From Flavobacterium beibuense F44-8 (GTDB taxonomy: Bacteria > Bacteroidota > Bacteroidia > Flavobacteriales > Flavobacteriaceae): a DNA stretch of 64,000 bases. Positions 49,991 to 55,119 of this stretch are shown here, one piece after another. Made by a program: the position numbers and the translations under genes. The notes under the pieces are model-generated. The model searched no databases. It was not told where the DNA came from and saw only the letters and a program-made list of their open reading frames with translations. Position 1 is the stretch's first letter, and each line of letters starts with the position of its first letter. The DNA lies in the NCBI RefSeq assembly GCF_000769915.1, contig NZ_JRLV01000008.1, positions 62,001 through 126,000 on the forward strand, written 5' to 3'.

Positions 49991-50776
49991 TTACAGGATT
50001 GCTTTGTAAAACTGTAACAGATCGGTTGTAAGGGCTTCCCTGTTCTCTATGTGTGCCATGTGTCCGTCAGGGTAGGTAATAAGTTTTACTTTAGTACCAT
50101 CCAGTTGGCTAAGGCTGTCCTGATAATTCATTACCGGATCTTTTTTCCCTAATACTAGTAGTACAGGTATATCTGTAGTGTGCAGTAGTATTTCTCGGTC
50201 CTTACGTATTTTCATGCCTTCCAGTGCGGCAACAATTCCCTGAACCGGAGTTTTTAGGGCTTCATTACGCACCGCTTCAATCTCTGCTGTTAGGCGTTCC
50301 CTGTTTTCTTCGCTAAAAAGATTAGCAATGGCAAGGCGCACAAAGTTGGCATAACTTTGTTTTACGGCATTAATAGCCCTGTCGCGGTTAAGTTTTCGCT
50401 CTTCGCTATCGGCTTTTGAGGTGGAGTTTTGCAATACAATACCTTTAACCATATCAGGATACAACTCGGCTATTGCCAGTGCCACATATCCGCCCATAGA
50501 ATGCCCTGTAAAAACAGCTTCGGTTATTTCTAACTCTTCCAGTACGGCATATACAACATCTGCCATGTCTTCCATAGTGTGAATGTAACCTATGCAGTCG
50601 GTTTGCCCATGTCCCAAAAGATCTACAGTAATAACACGGTAGTATTTGGAGAACTCGGTTATGTAGTGTTTCCACATATTACTGTTTTCCAAAAAGCCAT
50701 GTAATAACACAAGGGCAGGACCGTTTCCGGTATCGGTATAACTTACAGTCGAGTTTTTATAGTGGATATGTTTCAA
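49991..50776 (-). CDS. Alpha/beta hydrolase
   Basis: Serine hydrolase of the alpha/beta fold with unknown substrate. The nucleophile elbow is GHSMGG with Ser93, the oxyanion region is VLLHGFLENSNMW near residue 23, and LLGHGQTD is at about 53. The catalytic acid and His sit in VLGKKDPVMN and DGHMAHIENREAL. The 261 residues fit short esterase or BioH-like members. No signal peptide. It is convergent with the AddB gene and divergent from abiH; nothing around it suggests a substrate. Confidence 0.88.
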   Translation of the reverse strand: MKHIHYKNSTVSYTDTGNGPALVLLHGFLENSNMWKHYITEFSKYYRVITVDLLGHGQTDCIGYIHTMEDMADVVYAVLEELEITEAVFTGHSMGGYVALAIAELYPDMVKGIVLQNSTSKADSEERKLNRDRAINAVKQSYANFVRLAIANLFSEENRERLTAEIEAVRNEALKTPVQGIVAALEGMKIRKDREILLHTTDIPVLLVLGKKDPVMNYQDSLSQLDGTKVKLITYPDGHMAHIENREALTTDLLQFYKAIL

Positions 50777-50863
50777 CTTGTTTTGTGTGAGGGATTAGGG
50801 GTAATTGACTGCAAAATTAATCTATCTGTATAGAAAAGAGCAAGCAAAGTTTTGTTAAATAAG

Positions 50864-50871
50864 TATATTTG
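50864..50871 (+). promoter_or_regulatory. -7 promoter element of abiH
   Basis: TATATTTG, exact match, 22 bases before the ATG at 50894. No well-spaced -33 TTG. Confidence 0.5.
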
Positions 50872-50893
50872 AAATACCTAACACACCTTTTTT

Positions 50894-52126
50894 ATGAACA
50901 GACTTGTTATTATAGGCAATGGTTTTGACCTTGCGCACGGCTTACCAACCGGATATTCTGATTTTATAAATGATTTTTGGAGGAATTTCAGAAAGTGTTT
51001 GAACACTGAAGATTATAAGAGTATTTTGGAGATAAATGAAAGCTTTGTAAATTTTCTAAATTATGGAGAAATCAATTCTTTTAAGGATTTCAAAGCTAAT
51101 ATTCTAGAATATGCAAAAGACTATGGTTTTTCTTTTCATGATGGAGGTAATCAAGGAATTTTACAGCAACATCAAAACAGGATAACCTTAATTAAATATA
51201 AAAATTATTTTTTCAAGATTATAAATGAATTACACTCTGTTCAGAATTGGATTGATATAGAAAATTTATATTTTAAAATTCTGAAAGATTGCTTAGAGGA
51301 TTCTACATTAAATAATTATCATACAGATGTTACAACTTTGAATAAAGAATTTGAACAAATAAAAGTATTGTTTGAAAAATACTTAAGTCTAAAAGTTAAT
51401 GATAAATATGATTTCAAATCGCCTCCTGAAAAAACAACTTTTCTTACCAAGTTATTCGATGTTAAATCGAGAGATAATGATTTATATTTAAGAGAGTTTA
51501 GTTATGGAGATAGGGGGAAAGTAAAAGAGAACTTAAAAGAAGTAGAGTTAAACCTATTGTTAGACAAGGAAGAGAGAGAGCAATGTTTACTTTTAAATTT
51601 CAATTATACGGCAACAGCCGATAATTATTGTAAGATTATGAATATGGATTCTGTTAAGTACGGAAAGTGTAGAATAATCCAAATTCATGGAAGGTTAAAT
51701 GATCCTGAGAATAAAATCAATTTTGGTTTTGGCGATGAAATGGATGATGATTACAAAAAGATTGAGAATAAGGATGATAATGAGTATCTACGAAATATAA
51801 AATCGTTTCAGTACCTACAAAATTCAAATTATAAGGATATGCTTGATTTTGTTGAAAGTGAGATATTTCAGGTATATATAATGGGGCACTCCTGTGGATT
51901 GTCTGACAGGATTTTATTGAATAAGATATTCGAACATCATAATTGTAAATCGATAAAAGTATTCTATTATAAAAATGGTGACTGGGATAACTATACAGAG
52001 ATAATACAAAACATATCCCGCCATTTTAATAAAAAAGAAATGATGCGTGAAAAGATTGTCAATAAAACCCTATGCCAGCCTTTACCACAAGAAATAAGGT
52101 TTAAAGAAAAAAATAACGGCTCATAA
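50894..52126 (+). CDS. AbiH-family abortive infection protein
   Basis: Predicted anti-phage abortive-infection protein. The AbiH hallmark opens the protein: LVIIGNGFDLAHGLPTGYSDF (a glycine loop at 7-17 and GLPT). Next come NWIDIENLYFKIL (119-131), LLLNFNYTATAD (232-243), IIQIHGRLND (261-270) and MGHSCGLSDRILL (330-342). Glycine loop, NYT, IHG and GHSxxxSD follow the same order as the NAD-site elements of SIR2-type proteins, an analogy I infer. The 410 residues fit AbiH. It is visibly AT-richer than its neighbours and stands alone with its own promoter and terminator, features of an acquired defence gene. No toxin-antitoxin partner or mobile element is adjacent. Confidence 0.88.
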   Translation: MNRLVIIGNGFDLAHGLPTGYSDFINDFWRNFRKCLNTEDYKSILEINESFVNFLNYGEINSFKDFKANILEYAKDYGFSFHDGGNQGILQQHQNRITLIKYKNYFFKIINELHSVQNWIDIENLYFKILKDCLEDSTLNNYHTDVTTLNKEFEQIKVLFEKYLSLKVNDKYDFKSPPEKTTFLTKLFDVKSRDNDLYLREFSYGDRGKVKENLKEVELNLLLDKEEREQCLLLNFNYTATADNYCKIMNMDSVKYGKCRIIQIHGRLNDPENKINFGFGDEMDDDYKKIENKDDNEYLRNIKSFQYLQNSNYKDMLDFVESEIFQVYIMGHSCGLSDRILLNKIFEHHNCKSIKVFYYKNGDWDNYTEIIQNISRHFNKKEMMREKIVNKTLCQPLPQEIRFKEKNNGS

Positions 52127-52146
52127 TTATGAGCCGTTATTTTTTT
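52112..52146. terminator. Bidirectional terminator of abiH, containing its stop codon
   Basis: A near-perfect palindrome AATAACGGCTCATAA with TTATGAGCCGTTATT, then a T-run on the plus strand. The abiH TAA (52124-52126) lies in its centre. It separates the convergent abiH and pepP genes. Confidence 0.9.
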
Positions 52147-52169
52147 ATATCGCAATTAACCAGTATTAG

Positions 52170-53462
52170 TTACTGATTCATTAAGCTTTCAATCTCATCT
52201 GCTTCAATAGGGATATTGCGCATCAGGTTAAACGGCTCGCCGCTTTCCTGTATTACCACATCATCTTCAAGACGGATACCAAAACCTTCGGCAGGGATAT
52301 AAATTCCCGGTTCAACGGTAAATACCATATTCGGTTTCATTGGCTCAACCAGTAAACCGTAATCGTGAGTATCAAGACCTAAGTGGTGAGACGTACCGTG
52401 CATAAAGTACTTTTTGTACGCAGGCCAGTCCGGATTTTCGTTCTGTACATCAGCTTTATCTAAAAGACCAAGACCTAAAAGCTCTGAAGTCATTATTTTA
52501 CCCACTTCCACATGGTACTGTTTCCATAGTGCACCAGGTACAAGCATTTTTGTAGCCTCGTCCTTAACACGTAGTACGGCATTGTATACCTCTTTCTGCC
52601 TGTCGGTAAAACGACCTGATACTGGTATAGTACGCGACATATCACTTGAATAGTTGGCATATTCGGCACCTACATCAAAAAGAATCAGTTCGCCCTCACG
52701 GCATTGCTGGTTGTTCTCCACATAGTGCAGTACGTTAGCATTTGCCCCCGATGCGATAATAGGTCCGTAAGCAAACCCTTTAGAACGGTTACGGATAAAC
52801 TCATGGATAAATTCGGCTTCAATCTCATATTCCATTACACCCGGTTTGGTGAACGAAAGCACTCGGCGGAAACCTTTTTCGGTAATATCACAAGCCTTCT
52901 GTAGTAAGTCAAGCTCTTCACTTTCCTTAATAGAACGAAGGCGTTGCAGTATAGGGTTGCTTTTTGCTACCTGATGTGCAGGGTATTTTTCTTTCCACCA
53001 TTTTACGAAACGTGCCTCGCGTGTTTCTGTTTGTACAGATGAACGGTAGTGCTCGTTTGTATTAATGTACATGGTATCGCAGTAAGTCATTACCTCAAAA
53101 AGAACCTTTTCGAAGTCCTGTAGCCAGTATACGCTTTTAATACCCGATACTTCAAAAGCACGGTCTTTAGTTAGTTTTTCACCTTCCCAAACAGCAATGT
53201 GTTCGTTTGTTTCACGAAGGAAAAGTATTTCGCGCAGGTGCTCATATGGAGCATCCGGGCAAAGTAAAAGTATGCTTTCTTCCTGGTCTACACCGCTTAG
53301 GTAAAAAATATCACGGTGTTGCTGGAAAGGTATTGTGCTGTCGGCACTAATAGGATAAATATCGTTTGAATTGAATACCGCAACGCTTTTCGGTTTCATT
53401 TCTGCCGTAAATTTTTTACGGTTCTTTATAAACAGGTTGCGGTCTATCTGATGGTATTTCAT
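52170..53462 (-). CDS. pepP: Aminopeptidase P family protein (M24)
   Basis: Dinuclear-metal peptidase removing an N-terminal residue ahead of proline. The 430-residue protein has an N-terminal aminopeptidase P domain (about 1-130, with YPISADSTIPFQQHRDIFYLSG). The catalytic pita-bread domain has the metal ligands in LILFDVGAEYANYSSDMSRT (two Asp), FMHGTSHHLGLDTHD (His), VFTVEPGIYIP (Glu) and GIRLEDDVVI (Glu). The ligand set is complete, so it should be active. It has an exact -7 element 25 bases upstream and is convergent with abiH. Confidence 0.94.
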   Translation of the reverse strand: MKYHQIDRNLFIKNRKKFTAEMKPKSVAVFNSNDIYPISADSTIPFQQHRDIFYLSGVDQEESILLLCPDAPYEHLREILFLRETNEHIAVWEGEKLTKDRAFEVSGIKSVYWLQDFEKVLFEVMTYCDTMYINTNEHYRSSVQTETREARFVKWWKEKYPAHQVAKSNPILQRLRSIKESEELDLLQKACDITEKGFRRVLSFTKPGVMEYEIEAEFIHEFIRNRSKGFAYGPIIASGANANVLHYVENNQQCREGELILFDVGAEYANYSSDMSRTIPVSGRFTDRQKEVYNAVLRVKDEATKMLVPGALWKQYHVEVGKIMTSELLGLGLLDKADVQNENPDWPAYKKYFMHGTSHHLGLDTHDYGLLVEPMKPNMVFTVEPGIYIPAEGFGIRLEDDVVIQESGEPFNLMRNIPIEADEIESLMNQ

Positions 53463-53567: not shown

Positions 53568-54071
53568 ATGAGAAAAATGTATTTCGTTTTAGCTGCTTTC
53601 CTGTTGGTTTCATCAGTTGGCAGTGCACAAATGAGAAAAAAGGACACGGCAGAACTTGAAACGGCTAAGTATGCAGGGAAATATACCTACGGTGAAGGGA
53701 CTGACTTCGGGAACGGGGAGGTGCTTGTATATCCGGAGAGTGATTCTACCATTCTTTTCTATATTAATATTGAAGTGGGAGAGCCTTCGTACAATATGGG
53801 TGACCTGTATGGCAGGGTAAGCATTGTTGACGGGAAGGGTGTTTTTGAGCGTAAAACACAATATTCTGATGATGGATGTAAATGGAGTATGACCTTTATC
53901 GATGATAAACTGATTATTGAGATTTTAGACGAGCAATATGAATGTGGCTTCGGGTATGGGGTTTATGCCGATGGTGAATATGCCCGTAAAAATAATATCA
54001 TACCGGAGTATTTTATCGATTTTGCCGATAAGAAACATTACTTTAAAAATCTTAAAGTTGAAGATGAATAA
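53568..54071 (+). CDS. Unknown 167-residue exported protein
   Basis: Not recognised. A signal peptide (MRKMYFVLAAFLLVSSVGSAQ, cleavage near 21) is followed by a beta-rich domain with many aromatic residues and two Cys (in DDGCKWSMTF and EQYECGFGYG) about 25 apart that could form a disulfide. Acidic patches alternate with Gly/Tyr turns. The gene overlaps the next by 8 bases (ATGAATAA), so the pair is translated together. It is the first of three small unknown genes on the plus strand between pepP and HMG-CoA synthase. Confidence 0.65.
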   Translation: MRKMYFVLAAFLLVSSVGSAQMRKKDTAELETAKYAGKYTYGEGTDFGNGEVLVYPESDSTILFYINIEVGEPSYNMGDLYGRVSIVDGKGVFERKTQYSDDGCKWSMTFIDDKLIIEILDEQYECGFGYGVYADGEYARKNNIIPEYFIDFADKKHYFKNLKVEDE

Positions 54072-54624
54072 CAGGTGTTTAGGCTTTTTGATTGTTATGG
54101 TTCTTTTTCTTTCCGGTTGTGAGAAGAAAAAAGAAACTATTGAGAGCGAGGTTCCGGTTACTGCTGTTTCAGATACAGTCACTGTTGCTGCTGATGGCAA
54201 TATTGACCAACAGGATCGTTATGAGCCTCAGCAGAAATCTATTGACGATGAAGGGACTGTGTTTCTTGATGATGTTACATTTAAGGTTTTGTCTGAATTT
54301 ACAGACAATGTGTCATTTGAGCAGAAAGTTGAAGGTTCAGGAAGAAATGTAAAATTGTTTTACAGAGAAAAAGTAATTCATCTTATTAATACTAAATTAC
54401 AGGATACAATCACTTTTAGGAAGGAGGATTTTAAAGATAAACTCCCTGATTATGATAATATGATTTTACAATCGGTGCTGATTGATTTTGAAATTATTAA
54501 TAAACCAATTCCGTTGGTTGTTACGTTTTGTATGCCTGATAGTGATTATTGCTACTTCTTTGATGTTCGTTTTACCAATGGTGCTTTGCAGTATGAAATG
54601 ATTAATTTAGAGATAGATGGTTAG
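54064..54624 (+). CDS. Unknown 186-residue lipoprotein
   Basis: Not recognised. The start is at ATG 54064, because it overlaps the previous stop by 8 bases and gives a clear lipoprotein signal (VMVLFLSGC-EKKK, Cys18); longer in-frame starts lie inside the upstream gene. An acidic Ser/Thr/Asp-rich linker (about 25-65) is followed by a beta-strand-rich domain (VTFKVLSEFTDNV, VKLFYREKVIHLI, PLVVTFCMPDSDYCYFFDVRF). It is likely a periplasm-facing partner of the exported protein encoded just before it. Confidence 0.65.
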   Translation: MNNRCLGFLIVMVLFLSGCEKKKETIESEVPVTAVSDTVTVAADGNIDQQDRYEPQQKSIDDEGTVFLDDVTFKVLSEFTDNVSFEQKVEGSGRNVKLFYREKVIHLINTKLQDTITFRKEDFKDKLPDYDNMILQSVLIDFEIINKPIPLVVTFCMPDSDYCYFFDVRFTNGALQYEMINLEIDG

Positions 54625-54675
54625 GAGTATGAGGGATAAATGATTTCTTTACGTTTTTTACTTTTGAAATGTTTT

Positions 54676-55119
54676 ATGACTGATATAGAGAATGTTTTTT
54701 CAATTTTTCATGATGGGTGTATTTCTGGATATAGTGGGGATATGACCTTACTCAATTTGAAAATAGAATGTACCTATTTGGCAGAATTGATAAATTTAAA
54801 CTATAGTTTTTTTTACATAAAACTGTTTGAGGTTAGTCATCTCAGTTTTCAAACATGGCATAATCTTATTGATTTAGCGACAGAACTTGTAATTAAGCCT
54901 GAAAAAATTTTTCAGGCAGAACTTGAAATTTTAAGTGCTAATATAAAAGACGATGTGGTCGAGGTAATATGCAATCAGTATGATAAGACTTTTGACTATT
55001 GTGGTGGCGTTTTAAGGATTTCGGCTAATAGAATTGAGATTTGTGACGAGAAAATGAACACTATTTCGCTTGATGAACTCTCTTCAATATGTGATAAGTA
55101 TTGGGATACATTCCGTTAA
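54676..55119 (+). CDS. Unknown 147-residue cytoplasmic protein, immunity-protein-like in character
   Basis: Not recognised with certainty. The start is put at ATG 54676 (MTDIENVFSIFHDG); an upstream ATG (54640) adds 12 hydrophobic residues not typical of a signal. No signal peptide or lipobox follows from that start. The small acidic alpha/beta protein has IFHDGCISGYSGDMTLLNLKIECTYLA and a DYCGGVLRISANRIEIC C-terminal part. The compact acidic, strand-rich character is like immunity-type or adaptor proteins of Bacteroidota, but this is impression, not evidence of family. Codon use looks more AT-rich than in the flanking genes. Confidence 0.5.
   Translation: MTDIENVFSIFHDGCISGYSGDMTLLNLKIECTYLAELINLNYSFFYIKLFEVSHLSFQTWHNLIDLATELVIKPEKIFQAELEILSANIKDDVVEVICNQYDKTFDYCGGVLRISANRIEICDEKMNTISLDELSSICDKYWDTFR

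Follow-up and report, generated by a model that had tools for sequence, protein, structure and literature searches.

The window analysed here is a stretch of 64,000 nucleotides from Flavobacterium beibuense F44-8, and the gene of interest, abiH, lies in it between an alpha/beta-hydrolase gene and pepP (Table 1). Its product matched the Pfam family AbiH (PF14253) with an E-value of 4.7e-25 and a score of 89.6 bits (curated cut-off 30.9); residues 4-358 covered positions 1-258 of 260, i.e. nearly the entire profile. Judged by its sequence the product certainly is a member of the AbiH family. With the other members it has in common the near full-length HMM match and the constant residues described below. 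Compared with AbiH forms of about 290-350 amino acids it is long (410 amino acids) and has a larger helical insert between the Gly loop and NFNYT. The PADLOC model for AbiH matched with an E-value of 3.1e-6, only at residues 3-67 (profile 2-65 of 343), and NCBIfam gave no match at E-values up to 1. A WWE_5 match at residues 355-391 (E 0.0097, below the cut-off) was taken as chance because only two of the 43 AbiH proteins aligned below show one. The source assembly (3.80 Mb, 61 contigs) contains a single AbiH match, and the nearest named relatives found are for the most part from Flavobacterium. The same genome has a Sir2-family gene (PF02146; L113) and no SIR2_2 match.

The consensus of the -7 element of Bacteroidota promoters is TAnnTTTG. 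A promoter-like TATATTTG was read by eye 23-30 bases upstream of abiH. At the other end, the first arm of a terminator hairpin extends up to the initial base of the abiH stop codon; none of 200 shuffled sequences was as stable as this hairpin, which also faces pepP. With a promoter-like element and its own strong terminator reaching the stop codon, abiH seems to form a one-gene unit. The initial annotation, made from the sequence alone, had called the gene isolated, which is right in this sense, and AT-rich, which agrees with a GC content of 28.2% compared with 42.2% for pepP. Beyond pepP, at 53568-55119, the window contains three ORFs (two overlapping; one DUF4738-like below cut-off) with no confident Pfam match; GC is 30-33% at 54000-54999.

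Table 1. The abiH locus: genes, candidate expression signals and conserved motifs (positions in the window).
Feature	Position	Strand	Evidence or remark
alpha/beta-hydrolase gene, slot border	49991..50776	-	Pfam, genus comparison
TAnnTTTG-like candidate -7 element TATATTTG	50864..50871	+	read by eye
abiH CDS, 410 aa, ATG start	50894..52126	+	ORF call, Pfam AbiH, predicted SIR2-type fold
Gly loop G8-N9-G10-F11-D12; D12 at the Ser position of SIR2	50915..50929	+	invariant 43/43; hhalign register
W119-x-D121-x-E123, helix start	51248..51262	+	W and E invariant in the 43-row alignment
F236-N237-Y238-T239	51599..51610	+	Asn on catalytic Asn; Thr replaces Asp of N-x-D
H265-G266	51686..51691	+	aligned with catalytic His of SIR2
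G331-H-S333....D338	51884..51907	+	Gly, Ser on the G-Y-S of SIR2_2 proteins; Asp displaced two positions towards the C-terminus
Terminator hairpin with U run	52107..52146	+	-23 kcal/mol, z -8.46
pepP (AMP_N + Peptidase_M24), other slot border	52170..53462	-	Pfam, genus comparison

For an AbiH alignment the F44-8 protein was combined with 42 of the 56 AbiH loci found, which are 20-55% identical to it. Excluded were the window itself (L001), L039, which repeats the contig of L019, and twelve truncated, broken or partial loci (L016, L017, L020, L026, L034, L049-L054, L056). Invariant in all 43 sequences are G8, N9, G10, F11, D12, W119, E123, F236, N237, Y238, T239, H265, G278, G331, S333 and D338. 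Thus, the motifs GNGFD, NFNYT, IHG and GHS....D, which the initial annotation had listed in sirtuin order, were confirmed with every quoted residue invariant, and its numbering of N237, H265, S333 and D338 was exact. The alignment has no invariant Cys and therefore gives no sign of a zinc module. An extra set was built from 74 loci, located in genus genomes, on viral contigs and on six plasmids of Bacillota and Pseudomonadota. Of the 76 frames that matched there, 65 were distinct at 90% identity, and 63 were left after removal of L151 (a repeat of L009) and L201 (a repeat of L002). Among those with a letter at the respective position, D12 was found in 60/60, N237 in 62/62 and H265 in 61/62, and position 239 was Thr in 60 and Ser in 2 of 62. 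W119 and E123 were each present in 62/63. Because the viral contigs had been found via the GNGFD pattern, independent evidence on D12 comes only from the genus loci identified with the Pfam model and the plasmid loci identified with tblastn, where D12 occurred in all 18 that have a letter there (L151 left out).

Next to this, AbiH was compared with two SIR2 families at the profile level. The SIR2_2 set comprised 25 of 30 loci; L073, L075, L079, L082 and L083 were omitted since the patterns missed their Gly or N-x-D motif, and this pattern-based choice biases the motif conservation within the set upward. The canonical Sir2 set comprised 17 of 30 loci, the others being dropped because of a wrong or cut frame or to limit the size of the set. 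With default columns hhalign aligned AbiH and SIR2_2 at the Gly loop only, with GNGFDLAHGLPT on GSGFSIPLGLPN (30 columns, E 0.002, probability 14). Aligning the three C-terminal motifs (probability 47-79) required the removal of columns with more than half gaps; the alignment with the 25 SIR2_2 effectors then had 115 columns, an E-value of 2e-4 and a probability of 47. In this register N237 pairs with the Asn of TTNYD and H265 with the His of the HG motif, and G331 and S333 fall on GYS. None of 200 column shuffles reached the score, neither with the full profile nor with residues 225-400, and the reversed SIR2_2 control scored 13.5 and 11.6, respectively, compared with 36.7 and 35.6 for the real profile. 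None of the columns conserved in the SIR2_2 alignment corresponds to W119 or E123. The likeness of GHS....D to G.S..D was less exact than the initial annotation had put it: Gly and Ser are in register, whereas the Asp follows the Ser by five residues in 42 of 43 AbiH (four in one) and by three in 25/25 of the pattern-selected SIR2_2 proteins. Because of this spacing D338 is out of register in the hhalign alignment.

Against the 17 canonical Sir2 proteins the comparison was insignificant (E 0.06-0.23; 0.19 with default columns); as a yardstick, SIR2_2 versus Sir2 gave 9e-11. The Pfam SIR2 families (PF02146, PF13289) were not among the 21 families matched by the 43 AbiH proteins at E-values up to 0.1. 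A PDB sequence search with F44-8 AbiH gave no match at E-values up to 10. An hmmsearch of PDB with the 43-row profile gave 17 matches at E-values up to 10, none of them SIR2; these matches, e.g. ATP synthase subunit 4 and apolipoprotein A-I, were uninformative. Therefore, a comparison of folds was needed. From sequence alone the link between AbiH and SIR2 is weak, and it is the fold that carries it. As there is no SIR2 HMM match and two signature residues differ, the sequence signature speaks against placing AbiH within the SIR2 families proper.

F44-8 AbiH was modelled with AlphaFold2 from the 43-row alignment (pLDDT 91.6, pTM 0.90). In the model one of the four motifs follows each of the strands 2-7, 230-235, 258-263 and 325-330. 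At ranks 1-16 a Foldseek search of PDB returned nothing but chains from E. coli entries of SIR2-HerA, Nezha or SIR2 (best E 3.0e-4 for 8su9_D; six matches below 0.001), and nothing else was below 0.1. These chains have 381-401 residues, consistent with the 415-residue SIR2 subunit. VIA-align, which re-ranks Foldseek's own matches, listed SIR2 entries in 44 of 50 rows. At the top was 8yhx_Q with a Z of 12.8 (246 residues, 4.2 A). The entry is titled after HerA and has 12 chains of 428 amino acids named SIR2 family protein; from its length chain Q presumably is one of these. Further Z values were 11.3 for PsSIR2 (8w9l), 11.1 for 8wld, 9.6 for KomBC, 9.4 for BcThsA and 9.2 for DSR2. The six non-SIR2 rows were 9d2f (7.9), AroE (7.4), MDH (7.1) and three chains of CRISPR-associated or ring-nuclease type (7.0-7.1). 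They overlap with the lower SIR2 rows, which reach down to 7.3, and lie at a level which the tool calls common. As a second model we used L032, a distant AbiH of 291 amino acids (21-22% identical), with a 19-row alignment (pLDDT 80.4). Here Foldseek was weak: the best match was a SIR2-HerA chain with an E-value of 0.018, none was below 0.001 and rank 2 was an unrelated designed protein. VIA-align of this model peaked at a Z of 13.4 for human SIRT2, and 50/50 rows were sirtuins or SPARSA. Because the 43-row and the 19-row alignments have sequences in common, the two models are not wholly independent. The initial annotation had proposed a likeness to SIR2 proteins and had named structure prediction as a check; in both models the SIR2-type fold was the best match. 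According to these predictions AbiH almost certainly has a SIR2-type (Rossmann) fold. Yet a common fold does not prove a common reaction.

Among known systems the best fold match to AbiH was the SIR2 subunit of SIR2-HerA / Nezha (8su9, 8sub, 8suw, 8j4u, 8w9l, 8yhx). In the nine top rows Z was 9.7-12.8 with 246-263 residues aligned, and the catalytic Asn and His are common to both. The structurally aligned residues are 12-16% identical, and AbiH has GNGFD and NYT instead of GxGxS and NYD. No herA is located beside abiH, the direct neighbours of which are the alpha/beta-hydrolase gene and pepP. The SIR2 domains of ThsA, DSR2, KomBC (HAM-SIR2) and the SIR2-STAND effectors also fold like AbiH and have the catalytic Asn and His; their Z values are 7.5-9.6, and the lower ones overlap those of unrelated rows (7.0-7.9). 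These effectors carry a separate sensor domain or partner, whereas AbiH has only its insert, and in addition the pocket exchange. The fold of canonical sirtuins (SIRT2, SIRT3, bacterial Sir2) matched the short AbiH with a Z of 12.1-13.4 and F44-8 AbiH with 8.0-8.1 (yeast Hst2 8.1, human SIRT2 8.0). Unlike them, AbiH has no invariant Cys, and the profile comparison was insignificant.

The two signature residues in which AbiH departs from SIR2 are on different loops. The Gly loop is GxGxS in SIR2_2 proteins (Ser in 24/25 of this pattern-selected set) and GAGxS in 17/17 canonical Sir2 proteins; in AbiH GxGxS is absent, and the loop is GNGFD in 43/43. The Asn loop is N-[YFW]-D in SIR2_2 (Asp in 25/25 of the same set), QN[VI]D in 17/17 canonical Sir2 and NYT in 43/43 AbiH. 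The Asp of N-x-D thus is absent; a Thr is in its place in all 43 proteins, as in 60 of the 62 extra sequences, with Ser in the other 2. The catalytic Asn of N-x-D is kept (N237, 43/43, in register by hhalign) and so is the catalytic His of H-G (H265, 43/43). In sirtuin structures the loops with the Gly-loop Ser and the N-x-D Asp touch and form one pocket; a literature search on these two residues sharing a pocket found no paper. In DSR2 the Asp of NYD is part of the lining of the catalytic pocket, and the D135A mutation lowers NAD+ degradation (PMC11263360). In simulations of SIRT3, Asp231 is bonded to the nicotinamide amide (PMC4164625); we regard it as the equivalent residue. We read Asp12 and Thr239 as a putative reciprocal exchange, in which two loops of the same pocket have swapped residue types and which may be compensatory. 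W119 and E123 may contribute a second carboxylate to it. Tentatively, AbiH could even be a separate branch of SIR2-fold immune effectors in which the acid has moved to Asp12, Thr or Ser 239 is in the old place and Glu123 may join. With the acid so relocated, such a reorganised pocket may cleave NAD+ by another geometry, use another nucleotide as a substrate or transfer ADP-ribose.

We assign a probability of roughly 0.6 to the reading that AbiH is a sirtuin-fold, single-gene abortive-infection effector which, by analogy with SIR2 effectors, would cleave NAD+ via N237 and H265. A phage cue would activate AbiH. NAD+ would be bound across the loops after strand 1 (GNGFD) and after the strands before NFNYT, IHG and GHS....D. 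Asn237 and His265 would then cleave the bond between nicotinamide and ribose in the roles which they have in ThsA and DSR2, the NAD pool would be emptied and phage replication would stop. The two loops differ from those of the known SIR2 NADases, as the Gly loop of AbiH has an acid (Asp12) and its Asn loop a hydroxyl (Thr239), opposite to the arrangement in SIR2. ThsA requires N112 and H152 for NAD+ cleavage, with H152A also upsetting the oligomer (PMC7272460), and DSR2 likewise requires N133 and H171 (PMC11087589). N237 and H265 match this catalytic pair, and SIR2 was the best fold match of two AbiH models. Against an NAD-cleaving AbiH stands the Thr in place of the Asp of N-x-D, the Ala mutant of which lowers DSR2 activity; further adverse points are the missing Pfam SIR2 match, the PDB profile search without SIR2, the insignificant hhalign with canonical Sir2 and the weak Foldseek result of L032. 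Going by the predicted fold and the Asn/His pair, AbiH most likely works like a SIR2 effector.

The idea of a link between AbiH and SIR2 is not new and has been in print since 2012. Makarova and colleagues named predicted Sir2 superfamily enzymes as AbiH components and considered these enzymes as possible ADP-ribosylating toxins or nucleases (PMC3506569). The founding member was described in 1996 from Lactococcus lactis S94 (cited in PMC12322248). The same 2025 study reports that AbiH of S. thermophilus inhibits Vansinderenvirus phages and lists its mechanism as unknown (PMC12322248). The AbiH passages found in a literature search, which covered a minority of subscription papers and no bioRxiv preprints, report no NAD assay of AbiH. 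As a first alternative, AbiH may be a SIR2-fold enzyme with a different chemistry in the rearranged pocket. It could ADP-ribosylate a target or cleave another nucleotide, and Asp12, Glu123 or both would provide the catalytic carboxylate. The two constant changes in the pocket motifs (D12, T239) and the two constant residues peculiar to AbiH (W119, E123) point in this direction, as does mono-ADP-ribosylation, which the 2012 paper names as an option for such proteins (PMC3506569). However, AbiH retains the Asn and His found in NAD-cleaving SIR2 proteins, and the nearest folds of F44-8 AbiH include known NADases; we consider a different chemistry unlikely.

Among 26 relatives from GTDB genomes, identified by a search which favours close relatives, AbiH is between the hydrolase and pepP genes in 16 and has one of the two in its flank in 5; in 21/21 such loci its orientation is opposite to these genes. 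The other five comprise two loci of Alistipes, one each of a Lachnospiraceae and a Bacteroidetes bin, and a locus cut off by a contig end. In 61 genomes drawn from the genus both flanking genes were on one strand within 30 kb in 51 contig pairs, separated by at most 623 bp in 23 and by 1,076 bp to 9.9 kb in 28. AbiH occurred in 14 of the 61 genomes at 16 places, 9 of them in the hydrolase-pepP slot (G000, G399, G413, G417, G422, G430, G440, G442, and G446 by pepP alone) and 7 elsewhere. Broken slot copies in two of these genomes (L134, L139 and L156 in G413 and G442) point to repeated loss. The slot is used by two AbiH subfamilies with an identity of about 25% to each other.

The slot itself (50777-52169 in the window) is variable in the 51 genus contigs and ranges from 14 bp to 9.9 kb. 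Besides AbiH it contains AIM24, ferritin-like, DUF1398 or second hydrolase genes, and in L142 and L143 genes which by eye appear to be of the SusC type. A DUF1398 gene directly follows AbiH on the same strand at L128:80-472 and L047:2730-3119, and as a fragment seen by eye at L126:1301-1522. DUF1398 was considered as a partner of AbiH, but tblastn found it in none of L002-L027. In genomes of the phylum SIR2_2 (PF13289) was present in 57/198 and AbiH in 27/395.

Mean identity across 17 loci was 53% for AbiH compared with 84% for pepP. In all 17 loci with pepP nearby AbiH had a GC content of 22.5-31.7%, pepP one of 33.2-45.1%. AT-richness as a mark of recent import was rejected because AbiH is AT-rich in 17/17 loci measured. 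AbiH and pepP distances correlated with a Spearman coefficient of 0.45 (7 of 5000 permutations as high), and of 0.33 when L003 and L022 were left out (96 of 5000). As the distances correlate only moderately and two subfamilies occupy one slot, strict vertical inheritance is not shown. Of five pairs compared, one was saturated; the other four gave dN/dS ratios of 0.10, 0.14, 0.24 and 0.30, which show that AbiH is under purifying selection. We infer that in the Flavobacteriaceae slot AbiH is an old resident with frequent loss and allele exchange and no recent island. 'Typical defence cargo', as the initial annotation had put it, is unfit for the F44-8 locus because the slot, fixed and with the same orientation, is common to relatives and AT-richness recurs in all 17 loci. 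Outside this slot AbiH does travel. With F44-8 AbiH as a query plasmid records gave two weak matches and phage GenBank records none; two short AbiH queries matched 285 and 288 plasmid records. In three of the six plasmid AbiH loci a restriction or superinfection-exclusion gene adjoins. The viral contigs L158 (2959-4861) and L159 each have two different AbiH frames, in L158 in tandem.

These data bear on a second alternative, i.e. that AbiH is a resident gene of Flavobacteriaceae cell physiology and not a phage defence gene. The recurrence of one or both slot borders in 21/26 loci and in 9/16 genus places would agree with this, as would dN/dS of 0.10-0.30 in four of five pairs. However, a physiological gene that only 14 of the 61 genus genomes have, with some copies broken (L134, L139), evolving fast as the identities of 53% and 84% demonstrate, and with relatives on plasmids, three of six beside restriction or exclusion genes, and on viral contigs appears improbable. 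Moreover, one family member inhibits phages (PMC12322248). Still less probable is a non-catalytic sirtuin-fold protein whose role is confined to binding or sensing an NAD-type ligand. The loss of the N-x-D Asp would fit, yet the Asn, His, Ser and Asp residues in four of the loops are nearly constant across Bacteroidota, Bacillota and Pseudomonadota, which is unexpected for a dead enzyme. A nuclease function of AbiH, an earlier proposal for the Sir2 proteins in HerA-FtsK-type systems, is hardly credible. The 2012 paper names it as an alternative (PMC3506569) and the 2025 study lists SIR2-HerA with DNA degradation beside NAD+/ATP depletion (PMC12322248), yet HerA is absent beside F44-8 abiH and no nuclease family is among the over-cut-off Pfam matches of the 43 AbiH members.

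The SIR2-type model names D12, E123, N237, T239, H265, S333 and D338 and thus makes the mechanism of AbiH directly testable. If AbiH does cleave NAD+ with an exchanged pocket, the signature by which SIR2 effectors are recognised would be too narrow, and other families may possibly have been missed.
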